NCBI GenBank assembly: GCA_019694735.1
Contig: JAIBBJ010000123.1
Location: forward strand, 1-41,778
Reading direction: 5' to 3'
From: Gemmatimonadaceae bacterium
GTDB taxonomy: Bacteria > Gemmatimonadota > Gemmatimonadetes > Gemmatimonadales > Gemmatimonadaceae
DNA: 41,778 bases
The position numbers and the translations under genes are program-made. Shown here one piece after another: positions 3,155 through 31,605 of the stretch. Numbering within the stretch: position 1 is the stretch's first letter; each line of letters opens with the position of its first letter. Under the pieces are notes generated by a model that was not told where the DNA came from, searched no databases, and saw only the letters and a program-made list of their open reading frames with translations.

Positions 3155-3514
3155 ATGAAATCGGCCGAATTGATCATCACGGCGCGGAATCGGGCCGGGT
3201 TGAGCCAGCAGGAGCTGGCCGACCGGGCAGGGACGTCGCAGTCGGCGATCGCGCGGCTGGAGCGCGGGCTCTCCAACCCCACCCTCGCGACCCTGGAGCG
3301 GATCCTCCGCGCGGCAGGCTTCACGCTCGCCTGCGACCTCGCGCCTGTGGACGCCGAGGATCCGGTGGTCGCCCTGTACAAGCGCGACGTGGATCGCACG
3401 CTCATCCGCGAGAACCTCCGGCGTTCCGTGGATGAGCGGCTGCGGATGAACGCGGAGGCGCTCGCGCTCGCCGGCGAGCTGCAGCGCGCGGTGGCGGAGC
3501 GGCCCGCGCGATGA
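3155..3514 (+). CDS. XRE-family DNA-binding protein (likely antitoxin/regulator)
   Basis: The 119-residue protein starts with a complete Cro/C1-type helix-turn-helix (about residues 5-60). Key stretches are ARNRAGLSQQELADRAGTSQ, SAIARLERG, SNPTLATLERIL and AAGF. The C-terminal half is charged and alpha-helical (TLIRENLRRSVDERLRMNAE), as in antitoxins that use a tail to bind a partner. The stop overlaps the start of the next gene by 4 nt (ATGA, 3511-3514), so the two are translationally coupled. A nested palindrome abuts the start codon, which suggests autoregulation. The promoter of this leader-poor mRNA would be repressed by the protein itself. Confidence 0.8.
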   Translation: MKSAELIITARNRAGLSQQELADRAGTSQSAIARLERGLSNPTLATLERILRAAGFTLACDLAPVDAEDPVVALYKRDVDRTLIRENLRRSVDERLRMNAEALALAGELQRAVAERPAR

Positions 3515-4002
3515 TCGGCCTCGAGCGCCTGCTCGGTGCGCTCGCCGAGTCGGGGGTGGAGTGCATCCTCGTCGGCGGGATCGCGGCGCGTGCGCATGGC
3601 TCGGCGCGCGTCACGCAGGACGTGGACCTCTGCTACGCCCGCACCGAGGAGAACCTCGCGCGCCTCGTGCGCGCGCTCGCGCCGTTCGCGCCCTATGTGC
3701 GCGGCGCGCCGCGCGGCCTGCCCTTCGAGTGGTCGGTGCGCACGCTGCGGCAGGGCCTGAACTTCACGCTCACCACCACCGCCGGCGACCTCGACCTCCT
3801 CGGCGACCTCACCGGTGGCGGCGGCTACGCGGAGCTGGTGCCGCACTCGGCCGTGGTCACCATCTTCGGCCACGACGTGCGGCTCATCGACCTGCCGTGG
3901 CTCATCCGGCTCAAGCGCGCCGCGGGCCGACCGAAGGACTATGAGGTGCTCGCGGAGCTTGAGGCGATCCAGGAGGAGCGCGAACGGCTCGGGCCCGGAT
4001 GA
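3511..4002 (+). CDS. Nucleotidyltransferase-fold protein paired with the XRE regulator
   Basis: The 163-residue protein has the nucleotidyltransferase core at residues 21-40: LVGGIAARAHGSARVTQDVD, i.e. G-G followed by the D-x-D metal-binding pair in VTQDVDLCY. The third acidic residue may be in AGDLDLLGD. The C-terminal LIRLKRAAGRPKDYEVLAEL resembles the tail of the family that includes MenT/AbiEii-like and related small transferases. Such proteins next to a small DNA-binding gene often act as toxins that modify tRNA or as regulators. Here the XRE protein precedes it with a 4-nt overlap. Toxicity is an inference; a housekeeping transferase role is possible. Confidence 0.7.
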   Translation: MIGLERLLGALAESGVECILVGGIAARAHGSARVTQDVDLCYARTEENLARLVRALAPFAPYVRGAPRGLPFEWSVRTLRQGLNFTLTTTAGDLDLLGDLTGGGGYAELVPHSAVVTIFGHDVRLIDLPWLIRLKRAAGRPKDYEVLAELEAIQEERERLGPG

Positions 4003-6799: not shown

Positions 6800-7186
6800 T
6801 CAGTCGCCGACGAGCACGCTGAGGCGGCCGCGGCGGTTGGCGCGGCGCGGGGGGCGCACGACGATCTGCACGTCGTGGCCACGCGCGGCGAGGGCGCCCG
6901 GCAGGCGCTCCACCGAGAAGCCGCGGAAGTCGCCGCGCAGGAGCTTCGAGACCTTCGGCTGGTCGAGCCCCCTGATCACCGCGGCCTCCGCCTGCGTGAG
7001 GGCGCGTGCGCGGATCGTGCGCGCGATCCGCAGCACCAGCGCCGACTTGGCGAGCACGCCCTCGCGCTCCGCGTAGCCGAGCCCGGCCCACACGTTCCCG
7101 CTGTCGACCGCGGCGGCGCTGTCCATGGCGCTGTCCATCTGGGGAGCCGGTCTGGGGGCCGGCTTGCGGGAGGTCGGCTTCGTCAT
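6800..7186 (-). CDS. HigA2-type XRE (HTH_37) regulator without a visible toxin partner
   Basis: The 128-residue protein matches the HTH_37 group of XRE antitoxins/regulators: SGNVWAGLGYAEREGVLAKS, then ALTQAEAAVIRGLDQPKVSK, LLRGDFRGFSVERL and ARGHDVQIVVRPP. In this group the gene usually follows a RelE/HigB-like toxin gene. No such toxin is readable in the 371 bp upstream, although the same frame stays open to 7480 with codon use like a gene. The N-terminus has a short duplication, MDSAMDSA. Start ATG 7186 gives the family N-terminus; ATG 7330 (MGDALEWLRA) in the same frame is an alternative. It ends well apart from the outer-membrane protein gene, which is on the same strand. Confidence 0.75.
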   Translation of the reverse strand: MTKPTSRKPAPRPAPQMDSAMDSAAAVDSGNVWAGLGYAEREGVLAKSALVLRIARTIRARALTQAEAAVIRGLDQPKVSKLLRGDFRGFSVERLPGALAARGHDVQIVVRPPRRANRRGRLSVLVGD

Positions 7187-7557: not shown

Positions 7558-9183
7558 ATGACGTCCCGCCGCGACTTCCTCGCCCAGACCGGACTCGCCG
7601 CCGGTGCCGTCGCGCTCGCCGCGCGCCGCGCCGATGCCGCCGGCATCCGCTCGCCGATCCTCAACGAGCGCACCGAACCCGATCCGCAGGTGAAGGTCCT
7701 CCTCATGGAGGCCCTCAACGCCGCCAAGCTCGCCGGCGCCTCGTGGGCCGACGCGCGCATCCAGCGACAGCGCCGCCAGAACCTCGGCACGCGCGAGCAG
7801 CAGGTCACCAACGTCGCCGACACCGACACCATCGGCTGCGGCGTCCGCGTCCTCGTGGACGGCACCTGGGGCTTCTCGGCGACACGCACCCTCACGAAGG
7901 ACGGCGTCGCGCGCGCCGCGCAGCGCGCGGTCTCGCTCGCCAAGGCCAACCGCGTGGCCCGCGAACGCATGGTGCGGCTCGCCCCCACCGCGGTCCACGC
8001 CAACAAGACCTGGAAGTCGAGCTACACCGTGGACCCGTGGTCCATCCCGGTGGAGGAGAAGGTCGCCCTGCTGATGGCAGCCAACGCCGAGGCGATGAAG
8101 GTCCGCAACATCCGCTTCGTGAACTCCAACCTCTCGTTCGTGAAGGAGGAGCGCTCGTACGCCAACAGCGAGGGCTCGCTCATCACGCAGGACGTGGTGC
8201 GGAGCTGGGTCACGATGAGCTGCACGGCGGTGAGCGACGACCGCACCGAGACCGCGACCCGCGGCCCCGAGGTGGTGCAGCCGATGGGCCGCGGCTGGGA
8301 GTACGTGCTCGAGAACGACATCGTGAGGAACGCGACCGTGTGGGCCGAGCAGGCGCGGGAGAAGCTCACCGCGAAGCCGGTCGAGGTGGGGAAGTGGGAC
8401 CTCATCCTCCACCCGTCGCAGCTCTTCCTCACGATCCACGAGTCCATCGCCCATCCCACCGAGCTCGACCGCGCGATGGGCTACGAGGCGAACTACGCCG
8501 GCACCTCGTTCATCGCGCCGCCGGAGACGGTGCTCGGCAAGCTCCGCCTCGGCCCCGACCACCTCACCATCCGCGGCGACCGCTCGCAGCCCAACGCGCT
8601 CGCGACGATCGGCTACGACGACGACGGGGTCCAGCCCGAGGACTTCGACATCATCCGCAACGGCATCTTCACCGACTACCAGACGAACCGCGAGCAGGCG
8701 GAGTGGCTGCGGCCCTGGTACGAGAAGCAGGGGATGCCGGTGCGCTCGCATGGCTGCTCGTACGCGCAGAGCTGGAGCGACGTCGCCTTCCAGCGGATGC
8801 CCAACGTCTCGATCGTCCCCGACCAGCGGAACGACCGCTCGCTCGACGACCTCGTCGCCGCGACCGACAAGGGGATCGTGATGATCGGGCGCTCGAGCTA
8901 CTCGATCGACCAGCAGCGGTACAACGCGCAGTTCGGCGCGCAGGTCTGCTACGAGGTGCGCGGCGGCAGGATCGTCGGCCAGCTCCGCGACGTGGCGTAC
9001 GTGATGCGCACGCCGGACTTCTGGAACTCGGTGGACCTCATCGGCGGGAAGTCGAGCTACGAGCTGGGCGGGACCTTCAACGACGGCAAGGGCCAGCCCG
9101 GCCAGTCGAACGCGGTGAGCCACGGCTGCCCGCCGGTGCGCTTCCGGAACATCAACGTCATCAACACGGGACGCACGCTGTGA
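7558..9183 (+). CDS. tldD: TldD-family metalloprotease, Tat-exported
   Basis: The 541-residue protein belongs to the TldD/PmbA family, whose paired subunits form a heterodimeric zinc protease with the active site on TldD. The metal motif is HESIAHPTELDRAMGYEANY: H294, E295 and H299 give the HExxxH signature. A late Cys in SHGCPPVRF (C524) is placed like the third metal ligand of TldD. The N-terminus MTSRRDFLAQTGLAAGAVAL is a twin-arginine signal (SRRDFL), so this copy is probably exported folded, unlike the cytoplasmic Escherichia coli enzyme. TldD/E cleaves unfolded peptides such as microcin B17 leader and CcdA. The stop overlaps the GTG start of the partner gene. Confidence 0.9.
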   Translation: MTSRRDFLAQTGLAAGAVALAARRADAAGIRSPILNERTEPDPQVKVLLMEALNAAKLAGASWADARIQRQRRQNLGTREQQVTNVADTDTIGCGVRVLVDGTWGFSATRTLTKDGVARAAQRAVSLAKANRVARERMVRLAPTAVHANKTWKSSYTVDPWSIPVEEKVALLMAANAEAMKVRNIRFVNSNLSFVKEERSYANSEGSLITQDVVRSWVTMSCTAVSDDRTETATRGPEVVQPMGRGWEYVLENDIVRNATVWAEQAREKLTAKPVEVGKWDLILHPSQLFLTIHESIAHPTELDRAMGYEANYAGTSFIAPPETVLGKLRLGPDHLTIRGDRSQPNALATIGYDDDGVQPEDFDIIRNGIFTDYQTNREQAEWLRPWYEKQGMPVRSHGCSYAQSWSDVAFQRMPNVSIVPDQRNDRSLDDLVAATDKGIVMIGRSSYSIDQQRYNAQFGAQVCYEVRGGRIVGQLRDVAYVMRTPDFWNSVDLIGGKSSYELGGTFNDGKGQPGQSNAVSHGCPPVRFRNINVINTGRTL

Positions 9184-10625
9184 GCACCCTCCGCCACCAT
9201 CCCGACGCCCCCACGCGGCGCCTCGCCCACGCCGAGGCTGCGCGGCACGGCGTGCTCGACGAGGCGCTGGTGCTCACGCGCGCCGAGTGCGAGGACATCG
9301 TCCAGCGTGCGCTCAAGCTCTCGAAGGCGGACGCCTGCCGCATCAACATCGGCTCGAGCTACCAGACGAACCTCCGCTTCGCCGACAACCAGATGTCCAC
9401 GTCCGGGATCTCGGACGACGCGACGGTCACCATCTCGTCGGTCTTCGGGCGGAAGCGGGCGAGCGTCACCATCAATGACGTGTCGCCGGAGGGGCTCGCC
9501 CGCGGGGTCGCGCAGTCGGAGGCGCTGGCGAAGCTCGCGCCCGACGACCCGGAGCTGATGCCGGAGCTCGGCGCGCAGGAGTACCAGGCGATCCCGGCGT
9601 GGTTCGACTCGACGGCGAACCTGAGCGCCGAGGACCGGGCGCGCGCGGCGCTGACGGCGCTGGAACCGGCGCGGAAGGCGCGCGACCTCACGGTCGCGGG
9701 GTTCATCGACTGCTCGGCGAATGCCACCGCGGTGGGGACCAGCGCGGGGTGCTTCGGCTACCATCGCTCCACCGGCGCCAACTACACGCTCACTGTGCGC
9801 ACCATCGACGGCACGGGCTCGGGGTGGGTGGGCGCGGACGAGAACGACTTCGCGCGGATCGACTTCGCCGGCATCGCGACGCGGGCGATCGAGAAGTCGC
9901 GCGCATCGCGCAACCCGCAGGCGATCGAGCCGGGCCGCTACACGGTGATCTTCGAACCGCAGGCGGTGAGCGACATCATCGGCTCGGTGCGCGGCGCGAT
10001 GAACGCGCGGTCGGCGGAGGAGGGACGCTCGCCGTTCAGCGTGCGGGGACCCAACGGCAACGGCACCAGGCTCGGCGAGCGGATCATGGATGCTCGCGTC
10101 ACGCTGCTCACCGACCCGGCCGACCCGCAGATCCTCGGCGCGCCGTTCGACGGCGAGGGGCTCCCGACGGGCCGGCAGGTGTGGGTCGAGAACGGGGTGC
10201 TGAAGCAGCTCGCGTACTCGCGCTTCTGGGCGTCGCGGAAGGGCGTGCAGCCCAACAGCGGCGGCGGGGGCGGCTTCGGCGGCGGCGGAGGCGGCGGCCT
10301 CAAGATGGCGTCGGGCGACTCGTCGATGGACGCGATGATCACGGGCGCCGAGCGCGCGGTGCTGGTGACGCGGCTCTGGTACCTGCGCGTGGTGGACAAC
10401 CGCACGCTGGTGTACACCGGCCTGACGCGCGACGGCACCTTCCTGGTGGAGAACGGGAAGGTGTCGCGGAGCATCAAGAACTTCCGGTTCAACGATTCGC
10501 CGCTCTTCCTGCTCTCCAACCTCACCGCGGTAGGCCAGTCGGTCCGGGTGGCGGAGGGCGGGAGCGTGGTGCCGGCGCTGATGGCGCGGGACTTCAACTT
10601 CACCAGCCTGAGCGACGCCGTCTGA
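9180..10625 (+). CDS. TldE/PmbA-family partner subunit
   Basis: The 481-residue protein starts at GTG 9180, sharing GTGA with the tldD stop. It has the PmbA/TldE fold (RINIGSSYQTNLRFADNQMS, SVRGAMNARSAEEGRSPFSV, GLTRDGTFLVENGKVSRSIK) but no HExxxH motif, so it is the non-catalytic half of the heterodimer. It has no signal peptide, so export would depend on TldD, or only TldD is exported. An unusual glycine tract (GGGGGFGGGGGGG, from about residue 360) replaces the segment that normally follows the conserved VLKQLAYSR strand. Such a tract could be a flexible linker. The next gene starts 18 bp downstream. Confidence 0.87.
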   Translation: MSTLRHHPDAPTRRLAHAEAARHGVLDEALVLTRAECEDIVQRALKLSKADACRINIGSSYQTNLRFADNQMSTSGISDDATVTISSVFGRKRASVTINDVSPEGLARGVAQSEALAKLAPDDPELMPELGAQEYQAIPAWFDSTANLSAEDRARAALTALEPARKARDLTVAGFIDCSANATAVGTSAGCFGYHRSTGANYTLTVRTIDGTGSGWVGADENDFARIDFAGIATRAIEKSRASRNPQAIEPGRYTVIFEPQAVSDIIGSVRGAMNARSAEEGRSPFSVRGPNGNGTRLGERIMDARVTLLTDPADPQILGAPFDGEGLPTGRQVWVENGVLKQLAYSRFWASRKGVQPNSGGGGGFGGGGGGGLKMASGDSSMDAMITGAERAVLVTRLWYLRVVDNRTLVYTGLTRDGTFLVENGKVSRSIKNFRFNDSPLFLLSNLTAVGQSVRVAEGGSVVPALMARDFNFTSLSDAV

Positions 10626-10643
10626 CCTCCGCCTGATCCCCAT

Positions 10644-11669
10644 GTGAGCACCCGGCATCCCTGGACCCGCTGGACCGACGACCGGCTCCTGCTGCTGCGC
10701 TTCAAGGACCTCGGGATCACGCTCGAGGGGACCTGGGTGCAGCGGTGCGTGGACGAGCTGCACCAGGAGCTCGACGACCGCGGGCTTCGGCTCAAGCCGC
10801 ACGTGTGGGTGAGCGACGAGTGGTTCTCGCCGGGCGGGGTGTCGGGGTTCGCGGTGCCGTTCTACCTGCTGCACCCGCGGCTCATGAAGCTCGAGAAGTC
10901 GCAGCTGATCGAGATCGAGGGCGGCACGTATCACGAGTGCATGAAGATCATGCGCCACGAGTGCGGCCATGCGATCCAGCACGGCTACCAGCTGCACCGC
11001 CGCCGGGAGTGGCAGCGCCTCTTCGGCCGCTCGTCGGAGCCCTACCCCGAGGCCTACCGCCCCAACCCCGCGAGCAAGCGCTACGTGCAGCACCTGCGAC
11101 GCTGGTACGCGCAGAGCCATCCCGACGAGGACTTCGCGGAGACGTTCGCGGTGTGGCTCCATCCGCGCAGCGGCTGGCGGAAGCGCTACGCCGGCTGGCC
11201 CGCGCTGCAGAAGCTCGAGTACGTGGACCGGCTGATGCACGAGCTCGCCGGCGTGGTGCCGTCGCACCGCAACCGCACGGTGGTGGACCCGCTGCGGTCG
11301 CTCTCGCGCACGCTGTTCGAGCACTACACGTACCGGCGCGCGATATATTCGGTCGAGTATCCCAGGCACTACGACGACGACTTGCACCGCCTCTTCTCCG
11401 ACGACCCGCGCCACCGCGCGCGCCCCTCGGCCGCCGGGTTCCTCCGCCGCCACCGCGCCGACATCCGGCGCATCGTCTCCCGCTGGACGGGCGAGTACCA
11501 GTTCTCGCTCGACCAGGTGCTGGAGGACATGATCGGCCGCTGCCGCGAGCTGCGGCTCCGCGTCGCCGGGCCCGAGCGCCAGCTGCTGACCGACTTCCTC
11601 GTGCTGCTCACCGCGCGCACGATGGGCTTCCTCGTCGGCCAGGGCCGCCGCGACTGGATCGCCGTATGA
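10644..11669 (+). CDS. Putative zinc-binding metallopeptidase
   Basis: The 341-residue protein has a zinc-peptidase site, MRHECGHAIQHGYQLHRR, with HExxH at H105, E106 and H109. About 60 residues later DEDFAETFAVWLHP (about residues 163-176) offers acidic residues for the third metal ligand, an arrangement seen in putative zinc-binding metallopeptidases (the Peptidase_Mx type). No signal peptide is visible, so it should be cytoplasmic. The start codon is GTG 10644. It is preceded by an ATG that reads ATG-TGA (10642-10647) in another frame. The gene sits 18 bp after tldE and overlaps the ATP-grasp gene by 4 nt, so the four genes look like one operon. Its substrate is unknown. Confidence 0.78.
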   Translation: MSTRHPWTRWTDDRLLLLRFKDLGITLEGTWVQRCVDELHQELDDRGLRLKPHVWVSDEWFSPGGVSGFAVPFYLLHPRLMKLEKSQLIEIEGGTYHECMKIMRHECGHAIQHGYQLHRRREWQRLFGRSSEPYPEAYRPNPASKRYVQHLRRWYAQSHPDEDFAETFAVWLHPRSGWRKRYAGWPALQKLEYVDRLMHELAGVVPSHRNRTVVDPLRSLSRTLFEHYTYRRAIYSVEYPRHYDDDLHRLFSDDPRHRARPSAAGFLRRHRADIRRIVSRWTGEYQFSLDQVLEDMIGRCRELRLRVAGPERQLLTDFLVLLTARTMGFLVGQGRRDWIAV

Positions 11670-12676
11670 AGCGGCTCACGATCCTCGTCCTCACGCACCC
11701 CGACCTCGTCCCGCCCGAGACGGACGGCGCGCTCTCGCCGCGCGAGGCGTTCGACGTGAAGACCGAGTACGACGTCGTCTCGACGCTCCGCGAGAGCGGC
11801 CACGACGTGCAGGTGCTCGGCGTGCAGTGGGAGCTCAAGCCGATCCGCGACGCGATCGAGTCGCTCAGGCCCGACATCGTCTTCAACCTGCTGGAGGAGT
11901 TCCACGGCGAGACGATGTACGACCAGAACGTCGTCAGCTACCTCGAACTCCTGAAGGTGAAGTACACCGGCTGCAACCCGCGCGGGCTGGTCCTCTCGCG
12001 CGGCAAGGCGACGTCGAAGAAGCTCCTCACCTACCACCGCATCCGCGTCCCCGACTTCGCGGTCTTCCCGATGGGGCGCAAGGTCCGCCGGCCGCGGCAC
12101 CTGCAGTTCCCGCTCATCGTGAAGTCGCTCATCGAGCACTCGTCGCTCGGCATCTCGCAGGCGTCGGTGGTGGAGACGGACGAGAAGCTCGCCGAGCGGG
12201 TGCGGTTCATCCACGAGCGGATCGGGACGGACGCGATCGCCGAGCAGTTCATCGCCGGGCGCGAGCTCTACGTGAGCGTGCTCGGCAACGACCGGCTGGC
12301 GGCGTTCACGCCGTGGGAGCTGGTGGTGCGCAAGCAGGACCCCGACGCGCCCCTCGTGGCCACGGCGAAGATGAAGCACGACCCCGACTACCAGGTGAAG
12401 AAGGGGATCGTGATCCACGCGGCGGAGCAGGTGCACCCGGAGGTGGAGGCGCGGCTGCTGCACGACAGCAAGCGCATCTACCGGATCCTCGAGCTCTCGG
12501 GCTACGCCCGGCTCGACTTCCGCCTCGACGAGGAGGGGCGCCCCTGGTTCCTCGAGGCGAACCCGAACCCGGACATCGCGCGCGAGGAGGAGTTCGCGCA
12601 GGCGGCGGCGCACGACGGGATCCCGTATCCCAAGCTGCTGGAGCGGATCGTGCGGCTGGGGTTGCGGCAGGACTGA
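11666..12676 (+). CDS. ATP-grasp ligase, D-Ala-D-Ala ligase-like
   Basis: The 336-residue protein has an ATP-grasp fold. The N-terminal lobe (LTILVLTHPDLVPPE) is followed by DIVFNLLEEFHGE, as in D-alanine-D-alanine ligase relatives. The nucleotide-binding and catalytic lobe contains LIVKSLIEHSSLGISQASVV and the metal-binding end DFRLDEEGRPWFLEANPNPD. These enzymes activate a carboxylate as acyl phosphate and join it to an amine or thiol. It is not the cell-wall enzyme, since a standard ddl is at 30649-31605. Its start overlaps the metallopeptidase stop (ATGA). The pairing of a peptidase with a ligase suggests work on a peptide or amino acid, but the product is not known. Confidence 0.83.
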   Translation: MKRLTILVLTHPDLVPPETDGALSPREAFDVKTEYDVVSTLRESGHDVQVLGVQWELKPIRDAIESLRPDIVFNLLEEFHGETMYDQNVVSYLELLKVKYTGCNPRGLVLSRGKATSKKLLTYHRIRVPDFAVFPMGRKVRRPRHLQFPLIVKSLIEHSSLGISQASVVETDEKLAERVRFIHERIGTDAIAEQFIAGRELYVSVLGNDRLAAFTPWELVVRKQDPDAPLVATAKMKHDPDYQVKKGIVIHAAEQVHPEVEARLLHDSKRIYRILELSGYARLDFRLDEEGRPWFLEANPNPDIAREEEFAQAAAHDGIPYPKLLERIVRLGLRQD

Positions 12677-13827: not shown

Positions 13828-15324
<1,497 letters not shown>

Positions 15325-15363
15325 CGGGAGGCGCCGCCGGCGTGCCGGCCAGTTCGCCGGCCA

Positions 15364-15381
15364 GCGCGCCGACCGGCGCGC
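15364..15381. terminator. Hairpin between convergent mmsA and dmpA-like genes
   Basis: GCGCGCCG-AC-CGGCGCGC is an 8-bp inverted repeat three bases from the minus-strand stop at 15385, and 40 bp after the mmsA stop. It could serve both directions. No T-run. Confidence 0.4.
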
Positions 15382-15384
15382 CGT

Positions 15385-16629
15385 TCAGCGCACCGTGCGG
15401 CCGTACTTGCGCAGCGCGGCGAGCACGCGGTCGGCGGGGAGGCCGTACACGCGGGCGTGGTTCGCGCCCTCCATCGTCGGCGCGGCGAGCATCGCGTTGA
15501 CGATCGCCTCCTCGGTCGCCTGCATCGTCGCCTGGAAGAGCGGCGAGATGCGCGCGTTGGAGAGCATCGTCACCTGCGCGGAGTCGCGGCCCATCGGCGC
15601 GCTCGCGTTCGCGGTGGAGAAGGCGAGGAAGATGTCGCCCGATCCGTTCGACGCGTAACCGCCGGTGCGCGCGACGCCGAGCGAGACGCGCGTGGCGATG
15701 CGCTTGAGCTGGTGCGGCAGCAGCGGCGCGTCGGTCGCGACGATGGCGATGATCGAGCCGAACTCCTGCGGCTCGGCGGCGTCGTCGCGCGGCGCACCCG
15801 CGCCGCAGCGCGGCATCGCGCGGATGTCGGCGTCCGCCTCCGGCGGCACCGCGGCCGTGCGGCACTCGGCGAGGTCGGTGATCTCCTGCCCCACCGGCAC
15901 GCCGGCGATCATGAGGTTCCGCTGCAGGCCGAAGTTGCACTGCACGAGCACACCGACCGTGTAGCCGCCCTGCTCCGGCGGGAGCTTCCGCGACGCGGTG
16001 CCGATGCCGCCCTTGAAGCCGAGGCAGACCATGCCGGTCCCGCCGCCGACCGCGCCTTCGGTGACCGCACCGCCGTGCGCCGAGGTGATGGCCTCGCGCA
16101 CGTGCTCGGGCTTCACGTGGAAGCCGTTGATGTCGTTCAGCACACCGTCCCACGTCTCGGCCGCCACCGGCAGGCCCCACGGCTGGATCCCGGGCGTCCC
16201 GGCCTGCCACTGGAGGATGCCGTCGCGCACGACGCCGACGCTGTTGGTGTTGGTGATGCCGATCGGCCCCTCGAGGATGCCGCCCTCCTCGAGCCAGGTG
16301 GTGCCGGTCATCTCGCCGTTGCCGTTGAGCGTGAACCACGCCCCGAAGACGGGATCGTCCGCGCGCTGCCCGCGCGGATGCACGATGGTGACCCCGGTGC
16401 GCACGGGCCCCTGCCCCACCACGAGCGGCCCGGCTGCGCCGCGGATGATGGTGGCGTGCCCGACCTCGACACCGGCCACGTCGGTGATCGCATCGAACCG
16501 CCCCGGCGTCCCGCCGATGAGCGCCGAGATCCCGAGCTCCCGCGCCCGTGGCTGCCCCGAGTGCGTCGCCGTCGCCTGCGCGAGGAGGATCTGCGGCACC
16601 AACGCCAGCCCCACCACGAGCCCCCGCAT
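15385..16629 (-). CDS. DmpA/BapA-like (S58) aminopeptidase, exported
   Basis: The 414-residue protein belongs to peptidase family S58 (P1 family), N-terminal-nucleophile enzymes that cut themselves before a Ser. The expected site is EFG/SIIAIVATDAPLLPHQ, giving an alpha chain of residues 1-291 and a beta chain beginning at S292. Other family signs are DVAGVEVGHATI, GPIGITNTNSVG and GGTGMVCLGFKGG. A signal peptide (MRGLVVGLALVPQILLAQA) suggests the periplasm. Known members release N-terminal D-Ala/Gly (DmpA) or beta-alanine (BapA) from peptides. Its ATG overlaps the aminotransferase stop, so the two are co-translated. The neighbours favour beta-alanyl peptides as substrates. Confidence 0.85.
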   Translation of the reverse strand: MRGLVVGLALVPQILLAQATATHSGQPRARELGISALIGGTPGRFDAITDVAGVEVGHATIIRGAAGPLVVGQGPVRTGVTIVHPRGQRADDPVFGAWFTLNGNGEMTGTTWLEEGGILEGPIGITNTNSVGVVRDGILQWQAGTPGIQPWGLPVAAETWDGVLNDINGFHVKPEHVREAITSAHGGAVTEGAVGGGTGMVCLGFKGGIGTASRKLPPEQGGYTVGVLVQCNFGLQRNLMIAGVPVGQEITDLAECRTAAVPPEADADIRAMPRCGAGAPRDDAAEPQEFGSIIAIVATDAPLLPHQLKRIATRVSLGVARTGGYASNGSGDIFLAFSTANASAPMGRDSAQVTMLSNARISPLFQATMQATEEAIVNAMLAAPTMEGANHARVYGLPADRVLAALRKYGRTVR

Positions 16630-17993
16630 CACGCCACCGCGCGGATCGCCCGCCCCACGCGCTCGATCAGCTCCCCGATCTGCGCCTCCGAGATGATCAG
16701 CGGCGGCGACAGCGCGATGATGTCCCCCGTGGTCCGGATCAGCACATCCTGCTCCGCGAACGCATTCACGAGCACGTCGTACGCCCGCATCCCCGGCGCC
16801 CCGTCCCGCGGCGCGAGCTCGATCCCGCCGACGAGCCCCAGGTTCCGCACGTCGATCACATGCGGCAGCGCCCGCATCGAGTGCAGCGCCTCCTCCCACA
16901 CCGGCGCCAGCGTCGCCGCGCGCGTCAGCAACCCCTCGGCCGCATAGAGCCCGAGCGTCGCGATCCCCGCCGCCGACGCGAGCGGGTGCCCCGAGTAGGT
17001 GTAGCCGTGGAAGAACTCGATCCCCTTCTCCGTGGCCTGCACCACCGTGTCGTAGATGCGGTGCTGCACCACCGTGGCGCCCATCGGCACCGCCGCGTTC
17101 GTGATCCCCTTGGCGAGCGTGATCATGTCGGGCATCACATTGAAGTACTGCGCCGCGAACGGGGTCCCGAGCCGCCCGAAGCCGGTGATCACCTCGTCGA
17201 AGATGAGGAGGATGCCGTGGCGGTCGCAGATCGCGCGCAGCCGCTCGAGGTATCCCTTGGGCGGGATGAGCACGCCGGTGGAGCCGGCGACCGGCTCGAC
17301 GATCACCGCCGCGATCGTGTGCGCGCCGTGCGTCGCGACCATCGCCTCGAGGGCATCGGCGAGCTCCGCGCCGTGCGCGGGCATCCCGCGCGTGAACGCG
17401 TTCCGCGCGAGGTCGTGCGTGTGCGGGAGGTGGTCCACCTGCGGGAGCAGCTGCGCCGCGAACGCCGCCTTGTTGGGGGCGATGCCGCCGACCGAGATGC
17501 CGCCGAAGCCGACGCCGTGGTAGCCGCGCTCGCGGCCGATGAAGCGGGTGCGCTCGGGCTGGCCGTTCGCGCGGTGGTACGCGAGCGCGATCTTGAGCGC
17601 CGAGTCCACCGCCTCCGAGCCGGAGTTGGAGAAGAAGACGTGGTCGAGGCCGGTGGGGAGGATCGCCTTCACCGCGTTGGCGAGCTGGAAGCTCAGCGGG
17701 TGGCCCATCTGGAAGCTCGGCGCGAAGTCGAGCGTGCCGGCCGTGCGCGCGATGGCGTCCACGATCGGCTGGCGGCAGTGCCCGGCGTTGACGCACCAGA
17801 GGCCGGCGGTGCCGTCGAGGATCGTGCGGCCGTCGTCGGACCGGTAGTGCATGTCCTTCGCGCCGACCAGGAGCCGCGGCTTGGCCTTGAAGGCCTTGTT
17901 CGCGGTGAACGGCATCCACAGCGCCTCGAGATCGGTGGCGGCCGGGGTGGCGGAGGCGGCCGGGGCGGCGGGAGCGGCGGTCGGCGGTGTCAT
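16629..17993 (-). CDS. Omega-amino acid (beta-alanine):pyruvate aminotransferase, class III
   Basis: The 454-residue PLP enzyme matches the beta-alanine/omega-amino acid:pyruvate transaminases. It opens with the typical LWMPFTANKAFKAKPRLLVG, then SNSGSEAVDSALKIALAYHR, the PLP-contact Asp in IFDEVITGFG (D266) and the Schiff-base Lys in TLAKGITN (K295). It moves the amino group of beta-alanine to pyruvate, giving malonate semialdehyde and alanine. The stop overlaps the dmpA-like start by 3 nt, so peptide cleavage and beta-alanine transamination are in one transcript. The N-terminal 20 residues are Ala/Pro-rich and probably disordered. A CATCTT box lies at 18032-18037, 38 bp upstream. Confidence 0.87.
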   Translation of the reverse strand: MTPPTAAPAAPAASATPAATDLEALWMPFTANKAFKAKPRLLVGAKDMHYRSDDGRTILDGTAGLWCVNAGHCRQPIVDAIARTAGTLDFAPSFQMGHPLSFQLANAVKAILPTGLDHVFFSNSGSEAVDSALKIALAYHRANGQPERTRFIGRERGYHGVGFGGISVGGIAPNKAAFAAQLLPQVDHLPHTHDLARNAFTRGMPAHGAELADALEAMVATHGAHTIAAVIVEPVAGSTGVLIPPKGYLERLRAICDRHGILLIFDEVITGFGRLGTPFAAQYFNVMPDMITLAKGITNAAVPMGATVVQHRIYDTVVQATEKGIEFFHGYTYSGHPLASAAGIATLGLYAAEGLLTRAATLAPVWEEALHSMRALPHVIDVRNLGLVGGIELAPRDGAPGMRAYDVLVNAFAEQDVLIRTTGDIIALSPPLIISEAQIGELIERVGRAIRAVA

Positions 17994-29986: not shown

Positions 29987-30652
29987 TCAGCGGAGCCCGG
30001 TCGGCGGCGGGAGCCGGAGCCCCAGCCGCGTGTCGGCGTGCACACCCACGGCCTGCTCGAGCAGCGTCGCCCACCGCCGGTCGAGCACGTTGTACGCGTC
30101 GGGCGCCTGGAACGGGTGGATGACCACCTGCGTCGCGGCGCTCACCGCGTGCGCCTCCTGCACCAGCCGTAGCAGCACGGAGTCCGGCGTCTCCTCGCGC
30201 GCCGCGAGCACGAGCGCGTGGTCGCGCCCCCCCGCGGCCGCGACGCGGAGCGTCTCGATCGCGCGGTCCGTCGCCGCTTCATTGGAGAGGAACTCGAGCG
30301 TCACCTGCACCAGGGCGAGCTGCGGCAGCAGCTCGGCGAGCGCCTCGGGGCGCTGGCCGTCGGTGTCGAGCATCACCGGGATCCTCGGCTTCACCGCCTC
30401 GAGCGCGGCGAGCAGGAACGGTACGCTCCCGAGCGGGTCGCGCCCGCCGATCACGATCGAGTGGAAGCTCGAGCGCGAGAGCTGCCGGTCGAGCTCGCGC
30501 GCGAGCGCCGGCGCGACGTACATCGTCGCCGTCTCGGCCTCGCCCGCGAACCGCACGAAGAGCTGCCGACGCCCCGCCCAGGGCCCGAGGGACTGCACCC
30601 CTGCCGGGACCCCTGCCAGCGCCGCTGCCACCACCGATCCCACGTCGGTCAT
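29987..30652 (-). CDS. QueE-like protein lacking the radical-SAM cysteine motif
   Basis: The 221-residue protein resembles 7-carboxy-7-deazaguanine synthase (QueE) and related radical SAM activases: residues 19-37 read VQSLGPWAGRRQLFVRFAG, where QueE has the SxQGEGxxxGxxxxFVRxxG stretch. The next residues, EAETATMY, replace the expected cluster motif CxxxCxxC. The SAM-binding GGE motif is GGRDPL (69-74) and the strand PVMLDTDGQRPEALAELL matches the ldTnG region. The protein has no Cys at all, so a [4Fe-4S] cluster cannot be bound. It is likely a repurposed or regulatory paralogue. Its ATG overlaps ddl by 4 nt, and queF is two genes downstream. Confidence 0.65.
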   Translation of the reverse strand: MTDVGSVVAAALAGVPAGVQSLGPWAGRRQLFVRFAGEAETATMYVAPALARELDRQLSRSSFHSIVIGGRDPLGSVPFLLAALEAVKPRIPVMLDTDGQRPEALAELLPQLALVQVTLEFLSNEAATDRAIETLRVAAAGGRDHALVLAAREETPDSVLLRLVQEAHAVSAATQVVIHPFQAPDAYNVLDRRWATLLEQAVGVHADTRLGLRLPPPTGLR

Positions 30653-31605
30653 CGATCCGTTCCCGTTGCCGTTGCCCCGAGCGCGTCGAGCGCGATGCGC
30701 TCGCACAACGTCGGGAAGTCCACGCCGTCCGCCTGCGCCGCCTGTGGCACGAGGCTCGTTCCCGTCATGCCCGGCAGCGTGTTCGCCTCCAGGCAGAACA
30801 ACCGTCCGTCCGGATGCAGGCGGAAGTCGATCCGCGCGCATCCCCGCAGCTTGAGCGCCTCGTACGCGCGCCGCGCCAGCCGCTGCGTCTCGTCCCGCAC
30901 CGCCGGCGGCAGGTCCGCGGGGAACACCTCCTCCGCCATCCCCGCCGTGTACTTGCACTCGTAGTCGTAAATCTCGTGCTTCGGGATGATCTCGCCAACC
31001 GGCATCACCCAGTCCCCGAGGATCCCGACCGTCAGTTCCCGCCCGGGAACATACGTCTCCAGCATGACCTCGTCATCGTGGCGGAACGCGAGCGCGACCG
31101 CCTCGGACAGCGCCTGCGTCGCTTTCACGATGGAGAGCCCCACGGTGGACCCCTGCTTGGAGGGCTTCACCACCAGCGGCAGGCCGAGCGCCCCGGCCAT
31201 CTCCTCGGCGAACGGCGTGGTCCGCCATGGCCACCGGTCGCCCGGCCGGAGCATCCGCCAGTCCGCGGTCGGCACACCGGCCGCCCGGAAGACGATCTTG
31301 GACAGGTCCTTGTCCATCGCGAGCGCGCTCGCGAGGTGCCCGCTGCCGGTGTAGCGCACGCCCGCGAGGTCGAACATCGCCTGGATGGTGCCGTCCTCGC
31401 CGGCCCCGCCGTGCAGCGCCATCCACACGACGTCCGCGGCGCGCGCGGCCGGCAGCACGGCGAACGCATCGCCGGCCGGGTCGGCCTCGGTGACGGCGTG
31501 CCCCTTCGCGCGCAGCGCGGCGGCCACGCGGCCGCCGCTCGAGAGCGAGACCTCGCGCTCGGCCGAATCACCGCCCTGGAGGAGGAGGATCTTCAGCGGG
31601 GCCAT
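30649..31605 (-). CDS. ddl: D-alanine-D-alanine ligase
   Basis: The 318-residue ATP-grasp enzyme has the Ddl signatures LLLQGGDSAEREVSLSSGG, WMALHGGAGEDGTIQAMFDL, KPSKQGSTVGLSIV, ETYVPGRELTVGIL and the metal-binding end CLEANTLPGMTGTSLVPQAA. It joins two D-alanines for peptidoglycan in the cytoplasm. Its start overlaps the cbs stop by 3 nt and its stop overlaps the QueE-like start, so it is embedded in a larger operon. It is the standard cell-wall enzyme, unlike the divergent ATP-grasp at 11666-12676. Confidence 0.93.
   Translation of the reverse strand: MAPLKILLLQGGDSAEREVSLSSGGRVAAALRAKGHAVTEADPAGDAFAVLPAARAADVVWMALHGGAGEDGTIQAMFDLAGVRYTGSGHLASALAMDKDLSKIVFRAAGVPTADWRMLRPGDRWPWRTTPFAEEMAGALGLPLVVKPSKQGSTVGLSIVKATQALSEAVALAFRHDDEVMLETYVPGRELTVGILGDWVMPVGEIIPKHEIYDYECKYTAGMAEEVFPADLPPAVRDETQRLARRAYEALKLRGCARIDFRLHPDGRLFCLEANTLPGMTGTSLVPQAAQADGVDFPTLCERIALDALGATATGTDR

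Follow-up and report, generated by a model that had tools for sequence, protein, structure and literature searches.

The four-gene locus examined in the window (the whole stretch of DNA analysed, 41,778 nucleotides) is made up of two bicistrons that have been joined, rather than one ancient unit. One encodes TldD and TldE (TldDE), and the other a zincin belonging to PF15887 (MP) and a predicted ATP-grasp amide ligase (AG). The MP-AG pair is the more general finding, with the four-gene operon an addition at the level of the genus. MP and AG are most likely a cytosolic hydrolase-ligase pair that acts on a peptide-like metabolite, with TldDE, predicted to be exported via Tat, as a lineage-specific helper. 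In the explanation we prefer, which we hold to be about evenly balanced between right and wrong, the MP-AG bicistron is ancient and moves horizontally, and the two modules in one transcription unit act around one peptide-like compound. The observations made directly are the gene structure, the pairing and co-inheritance of MP and AG, the predicted folds, the conservation of the catalytic residues, the loss of Ddl residues from AG and the repeated adjacency of TldDE.

Organisation of the four-gene locus

The features of the window are listed in Table 1. The four open reading frames described in the first-pass annotation were recovered at their place and strand, with a 4 bp overlap between TldD and TldE (GTGA), an 18 bp gap between TldE and MP and a 4 bp overlap between MP and AG (ATGA). 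The first, second and third PmbA_TldD domains were detected above the Pfam cut-offs in both TldD and TldE, Peptidase_Mx (PF15887) in MP and Dala_Dala_lig_C in AG.

Table 1. Features of the window (positions in nucleotides)
Feature	Position	Strand	Remarks
Gene pair, by eye an Xre regulator and a nucleotidyltransferase	3155–4002		Possible toxin-antitoxin remnant
HTH_37 antitoxin-like gene	6800–7138		No partner called; possible toxin-antitoxin remnant
TldD-type metallopeptidase subunit	7558–9183	+	541 aa; Tat signal SRRDFL, HExxxH 294–299, Asp509
TldE-type inactive partner subunit	9180–10625	+	481 aa; expanded glycine tract typical of operon paralog
MP, PF15887 zincin	10644–11669	+	341 aa; HECGH 105–109, HPDEDFAETFA 159–169
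AG, ATP-grasp amide ligase (predicted)	11666–12676	+	336 aa; D-Ala-D-Ala ligase fold, altered acceptor site
CoA-acylating methylmalonate-semialdehyde dehydrogenase (MMSDH), S58 (DmpA-type) aminopeptidase, omega-aminotransferase AptA	13828–17915		Just downstream of the operon
Canonical Ddl, internal contrast to AG	30649–31605	-	Outside the operon; 339.8 bits, passes Ddl cut-off

The order TldD-TldE-MP-AG was found in 11 of the 17 genomes of the genus (the window, L037–L045 and L047), with TldD cut by a contig end in L044; in a twelfth, L046, the contig begins at MP. Neighbourhoods were called using our own procedure and the starts of neighbouring genes are approximate. The spacing between TldD and TldE was -4 in every genus relative tested, and that between MP and AG was -4 in 11 of 12. 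As these overlaps recur across nearly all of the genus relatives, they are not due to chance. Spacing at the TldE-MP junction ranged from -1 to 89 bp, and in two members of the genus the junction was interrupted by inserted genes, which were named by reading of the sequence. The insert in L040 is a serine-hydrolase-like ORF, and that in L045 is a 2 kb stretch with an RHS-like fragment (L045:6099–6677) that contains a VHETGH zincin motif. We infer that the four genes are probably co-transcribed.

A search of relatives for the same four-gene order had been proposed as a check, and the order held within the genus but not beyond it, where nearly all MP-AG loci are without TldDE. Similarly, the earlier suggestion of a single pathway combining a ligase with peptidases of two families stands as far as the tight packing and the two unrelated families go, but the distribution and the junction data led us to reject a single four-gene machine. 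A single TldD-TldE-MP complex is also unlikely, because a Tat signal is present on TldD but there is none on either MP or AG, and AG requires ATP.

The MP-AG pair

MP reached the gathering score of PF15887 (36.3 bits, threshold 27) over about a third of the profile, and all 58 MPs scanned matched this family (E ≤ 0.01). Like Peptidase_Mx (PF15887), it has an HExxH motif, seen in the first pass as HECGH, and the (E)DFAETF motif; it differs in covering only this part of the profile, in having no zinc ribbon and in having a helical C-terminal part of its own that follows a zincin core (residues 1–204). HExxH and HPDED(F/W)AETFA (DEDFAETF-type) are conserved throughout the MPs. Foldseek returned weak zincin matches only, and in VIA the core grouped with PPEP-type and lethal-factor-type zincins with middling scores (Z 6–8.7) that bear on the fold only. 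A search by sequence for a solved relative found none at E values up to 10, and no signal peptide was seen by inspection. Together, the two motifs and the predicted core point to a gluzincin. We found no characterised member of PF15887.

AG is modelled (pLDDT 90) with the D-Ala-D-Ala ligase fold, and the best Foldseek match of the model was DdlA (8evx, E 1e-27). Compared with Ddl/DdlB (PF07478/TIGR01205), AG has the same fold and retains the ATP/Mg residues and the oxyanion Arg, but it falls far below both curated Ddl family cut-offs (126.6 of 243 and 116.7 of 245.65 bits) and the Ddl-specific residues are mostly altered. In an alignment of 85 rows, K114, K153, E193, K237, R282, D284 and N299 were invariant and E297 was found in 84. 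The EANPNP motif noted earlier near the end of the protein lies at 297–302, shortly upstream of the last helices. The Ddl-specific residues E15, S150, Y216 and S281 are numbered as in E. coli DdlB, for which their roles are established. At the position of Y216 the 85 AGs have His or Trp, with one Phe and no Tyr, and at S150 mostly Ala or Gly, with Ser in 16 rows including the window protein. The S281-L282 pair is replaced mostly by Glu followed almost always by an acidic residue, and E15 mostly by Lys, Arg, Gln or a gap, though this last position is uncertain as the N-terminal alignment is weak. Because the ATP/Mg residues are kept and the Ddl acceptor residues are changed, AG is best described, judging from these residues, as a putative Ddl-fold amide ligase with an acceptor other than that of Ddl. 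A clean alignment with a known unrelated family had been set against the first-pass reading, and the outcome was divided, with the fold that of Ddl and the active-site residues not. AG was rejected as the Ddl of the cell, as a canonical Ddl is encoded separately 18 kb away in the same window. We expect that automatic annotation is likely to call AG “D-alanine--D-alanine ligase” despite the altered acceptor site.

A total of 84,980 species genomes were scanned for relatives of MP, giving at least 579 confirmed MP stretches, and the best 80 of these were checked for pairing. In 78 of the 80, MP was followed by AG in the same orientation, and the remaining two end at a contig edge. These best 80 come from about seven phyla, including Gemmatimonadota, Alphaproteobacteria (Bradyrhizobium amongst them), Planctomycetota, Myxococcota and other former Deltaproteobacteria, Nitrospirota, Acidobacteriota and Eisenbacteria. 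No conserved third gene was found beside the pair in this set, and TldDE was found in only three of the 80 loci, each from the genus of the window. Pairwise identities or distances of MP and AG were strongly correlated over 106 loci (r 0.97, a value reached in 0 of 1000 permutations). The window pair shares approximately 60 % identity with that of Bradyrhizobium, as against 29–40 % with pairs from different genera within its family, and this closer relationship suggests that the pair probably moved between lineages as one unit. Carriage as cargo of a mobile element was rejected, as no match to MP was found among plasmids or phages.

Across 61 genomes from the order to which the window belongs, almost every occurrence of MP had AG adjacent to it. 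In L067–L070 the two are adjacent on opposite strands, and in four f2 genomes AG adjoins a zinc-ribbon protein (c37) in place of MP; the one copy of c37 scanned, from L074, matches PF15887. The opposite-strand neighbours and the PF15887 partner indicate that the partnership outlives gene order, and suggest that AG commonly has a PF15887 hydrolase as its companion. Of the five members of the genus in which MP and TldE are both absent, four, two of them 98–100 % complete, keep AG without MP and without TldDE. In these, AG has 68–70 % identity and the same neighbours are retained, which indicates that AG can act alone and has a role of its own. We counted this against our preferred explanation.

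TldD and TldE beside the pair

TldD/TldE pairs are defined by HExxxH in TldD and its absence from TldE (PMC5810440), and the window proteins conform. As first described, TldD contains HESIAH (H294/E295/H299) and a Tat signal, here a Tat-type start reading MTSRRDFL, and TldE has a glycine tract without HExxxH. TldE also has the three TldD/PmbA domains. The likeness to E. coli TldD/TldE (PMC5810440) lies in the three-domain pair with HExxxH restricted to TldD. The differences are that TldD is here predicted to be exported via Tat, that several paralogs are present per genome, one in an operon with MP-AG, and that Asp509 (NDGKGQ) is probably the third metal ligand in place of the usual Cys (Cys454 in E. 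coli). Each of the 43 TldDs examined from the order has HExxxH, and 42–43 of them have Asp at the third-ligand (DGKGQ) position. Asp has already been noted as a natural substitute for the third ligand in a TldD from Gemmatimonas sp. (PMC5810440), so the variant gives no ground for excluding this TldD from the family. Most TldE copies of the operon paralog have an expanded glycine tract, as do those of L050 and L179; in nearly all other TldE paralogs the tract is short (GGGN/GGGS).

Most TldDs of the order examined have the Tat motif. TatC was found in 16 of the 17 genomes of the genus; it was not found in the draft genome of the window itself, which is probably an assembly gap, and we counted its absence against our preferred explanation. 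TldE, without a signal of its own, may be co-exported with TldD.

Amongst the 61 genomes of the order, TldE shares an operon with MP-AG only in the genus of the window. A serious alternative, though one we find rather doubtful, is that the modules are unrelated and share a promoter in one genus, with TldDE serving in general peptide clean-up, MP-AG separate and no substrate common to both. The predicted Tat export of TldD, but not of MP or AG, favours this alternative, as do the tolerance of the TldE-MP junction for inserted genes and the two further tandem TldDE copies found away from MP-AG in the window's genome. Outside the genus, the presence of MP and of TldE is uncorrelated (Fisher p 0.77), which both supports the alternative and was counted against our own explanation. 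Against it, MP and TldE are both present in 12 genomes of the genus and both absent from five, though this may reflect a single event. Different TldDE paralogs also adjoin MP-AG elsewhere. TldDE encoded on the opposite strand adjoins AG-MP in three other genera, with two pairs in g3 (L051) and one each in g15 (L058) and g6 (L050), and chance placement is unlikely: the probability of three or more such adjacencies is approximately 6e-6, and of two or more 7e-4, under random placement that ignores shared ancestry. These counts are partly dependent, as g3 and g15 have an ancestral neighbourhood in common, and this too was weighed against our explanation. In the TldE tree, the operon copies form one genus-specific clade (100/100) apart from the copies near MP-AG in other genera. 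We therefore read the functional link between TldDE and MP-AG as real but loose, as far as can be judged from gene content and order.

A second TldD/TldE locus of the same genome (L076, G000:C187), consisting of two tandem pairs, lies beside c12, c23 and c22, the genes bordering MP-AG in other genera within the family. This suggests an ancestral shared neighbourhood.

Possible substrates and proposed function

The genes at 13828–17915 look like a set for beta-alanine or beta-peptide catabolism and provide a weak, local hint as to substrate. In an unlikely explanation built on them, amino acids released by all of the peptidases, beta-amino acids among them, would pass to MMSDH, the S58 aminopeptidase and AptA, and AG would be a salvage ligase. 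The three genes sit 1–5 kb downstream of the operon (MMSDH matching TIGR01722), and 9 of the 20 loci inspected had AptA no more than 6.5 kb from AG; two AG-only genomes and one other genus are among these. However, other phyla do not conserve the set next to MP-AG, about half of the genus lacks it at that position, and a catabolic unit would have no need of a ligase.

TldD/E enzymes are known to complete compounds that are built on a precursor, among them microcin B17 and ammosamide (PMC5810440, PMC12424672), and their part in maturing several RiPPs raises the question of whether this is a graspetide-like cluster whose precursor peptide was overlooked. Loci with an ATP-grasp enzyme and a peptidase but no visible precursor are known from graspetide branches 7 and 8 (PMC8939145), and the Anbu operon is similar (PMC6376114), but both use other ATP-grasp families and other peptidases than AG and MP. 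We consider a RiPP cluster very unlikely, and less likely than catabolism. AG is Ddl-type rather than MvdD/RimK-like, with similarity to RimK-like enzymes at only E 0.17, and neither a transporter nor a leader-binding gene is conserved across loci. The first pass had seen no ribosomal precursor, and our six-frame search for ORFs of at least 15 aa, which covered 700 bp on the upstream side and 600 bp on the downstream side of the genus loci, likewise found no convincing conserved candidate, the hits being either pieces of neighbouring called genes or antisense frames that did not convince; the operon itself leaves no room for one. The Anbu-type amidoligase operon brings together ATP-grasp, alpha-E, transglutaminase and Anbu genes (PMC6376114). 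Membership was rejected because there is no conserved third gene near MP-AG, and none of the last three is a conserved neighbour in the best 80 of the at least 579 loci.

Separately, Ddl-like ATP-grasp clusters with a GNAT-like gene were seen in L184, L186, L187 and L188, with a tandem ATP-grasp pair in the first three. L184, L187 and L188 also include a radical SAM protein resembling KamA-family lysine 2,3-aminomutase (the L187 copy was scanned), and the L184 cluster has a convergent TldDE pair beside it. These could represent a beta-lysine peptide or osmolyte pathway.

In our preferred explanation, AG would use ATP to convert a carboxylate to an acyl-phosphate and then form an amide bond to an amine. 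In the cytosol, MP would hydrolyse the same small peptide-like compound at a peptide or amide bond, either supplying the substrate of AG or undoing its product. TldD-TldE, predicted to be a heterodimeric peptidase that is exported via Tat, and one of several paralogs, would have been recruited in the genus of the window to cut, trim or recycle a related peptide outside the cytoplasm. We infer that both modules meet the same compound, and the direction of flow, the identity of the substrate and export are likewise read from the gene context and protein features. More broadly, and with somewhat less than even confidence, we propose that MP-AG is an unrecognised, widely shared ligase-hydrolase module that makes and breaks an amide-linked metabolite or peptide tag without a ribosomal precursor, to which Gemmatimonas has added an exported TldD/TldE. 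No description of the pair was found in the open-access literature searched, though a 2009 amidoligase survey cited in PMC6376114 may hold one.

MP-AG is found in hundreds of species (at least 579 MP stretches, with pairing checked in the best 80) and is co-inherited almost perfectly. Naming its product would define a conserved small-molecule pathway. The Gemmatimonas operon suggests that cells make and break a peptide-like compound, and with its peptidase partner it provides a handle on the substrate of MP-AG.
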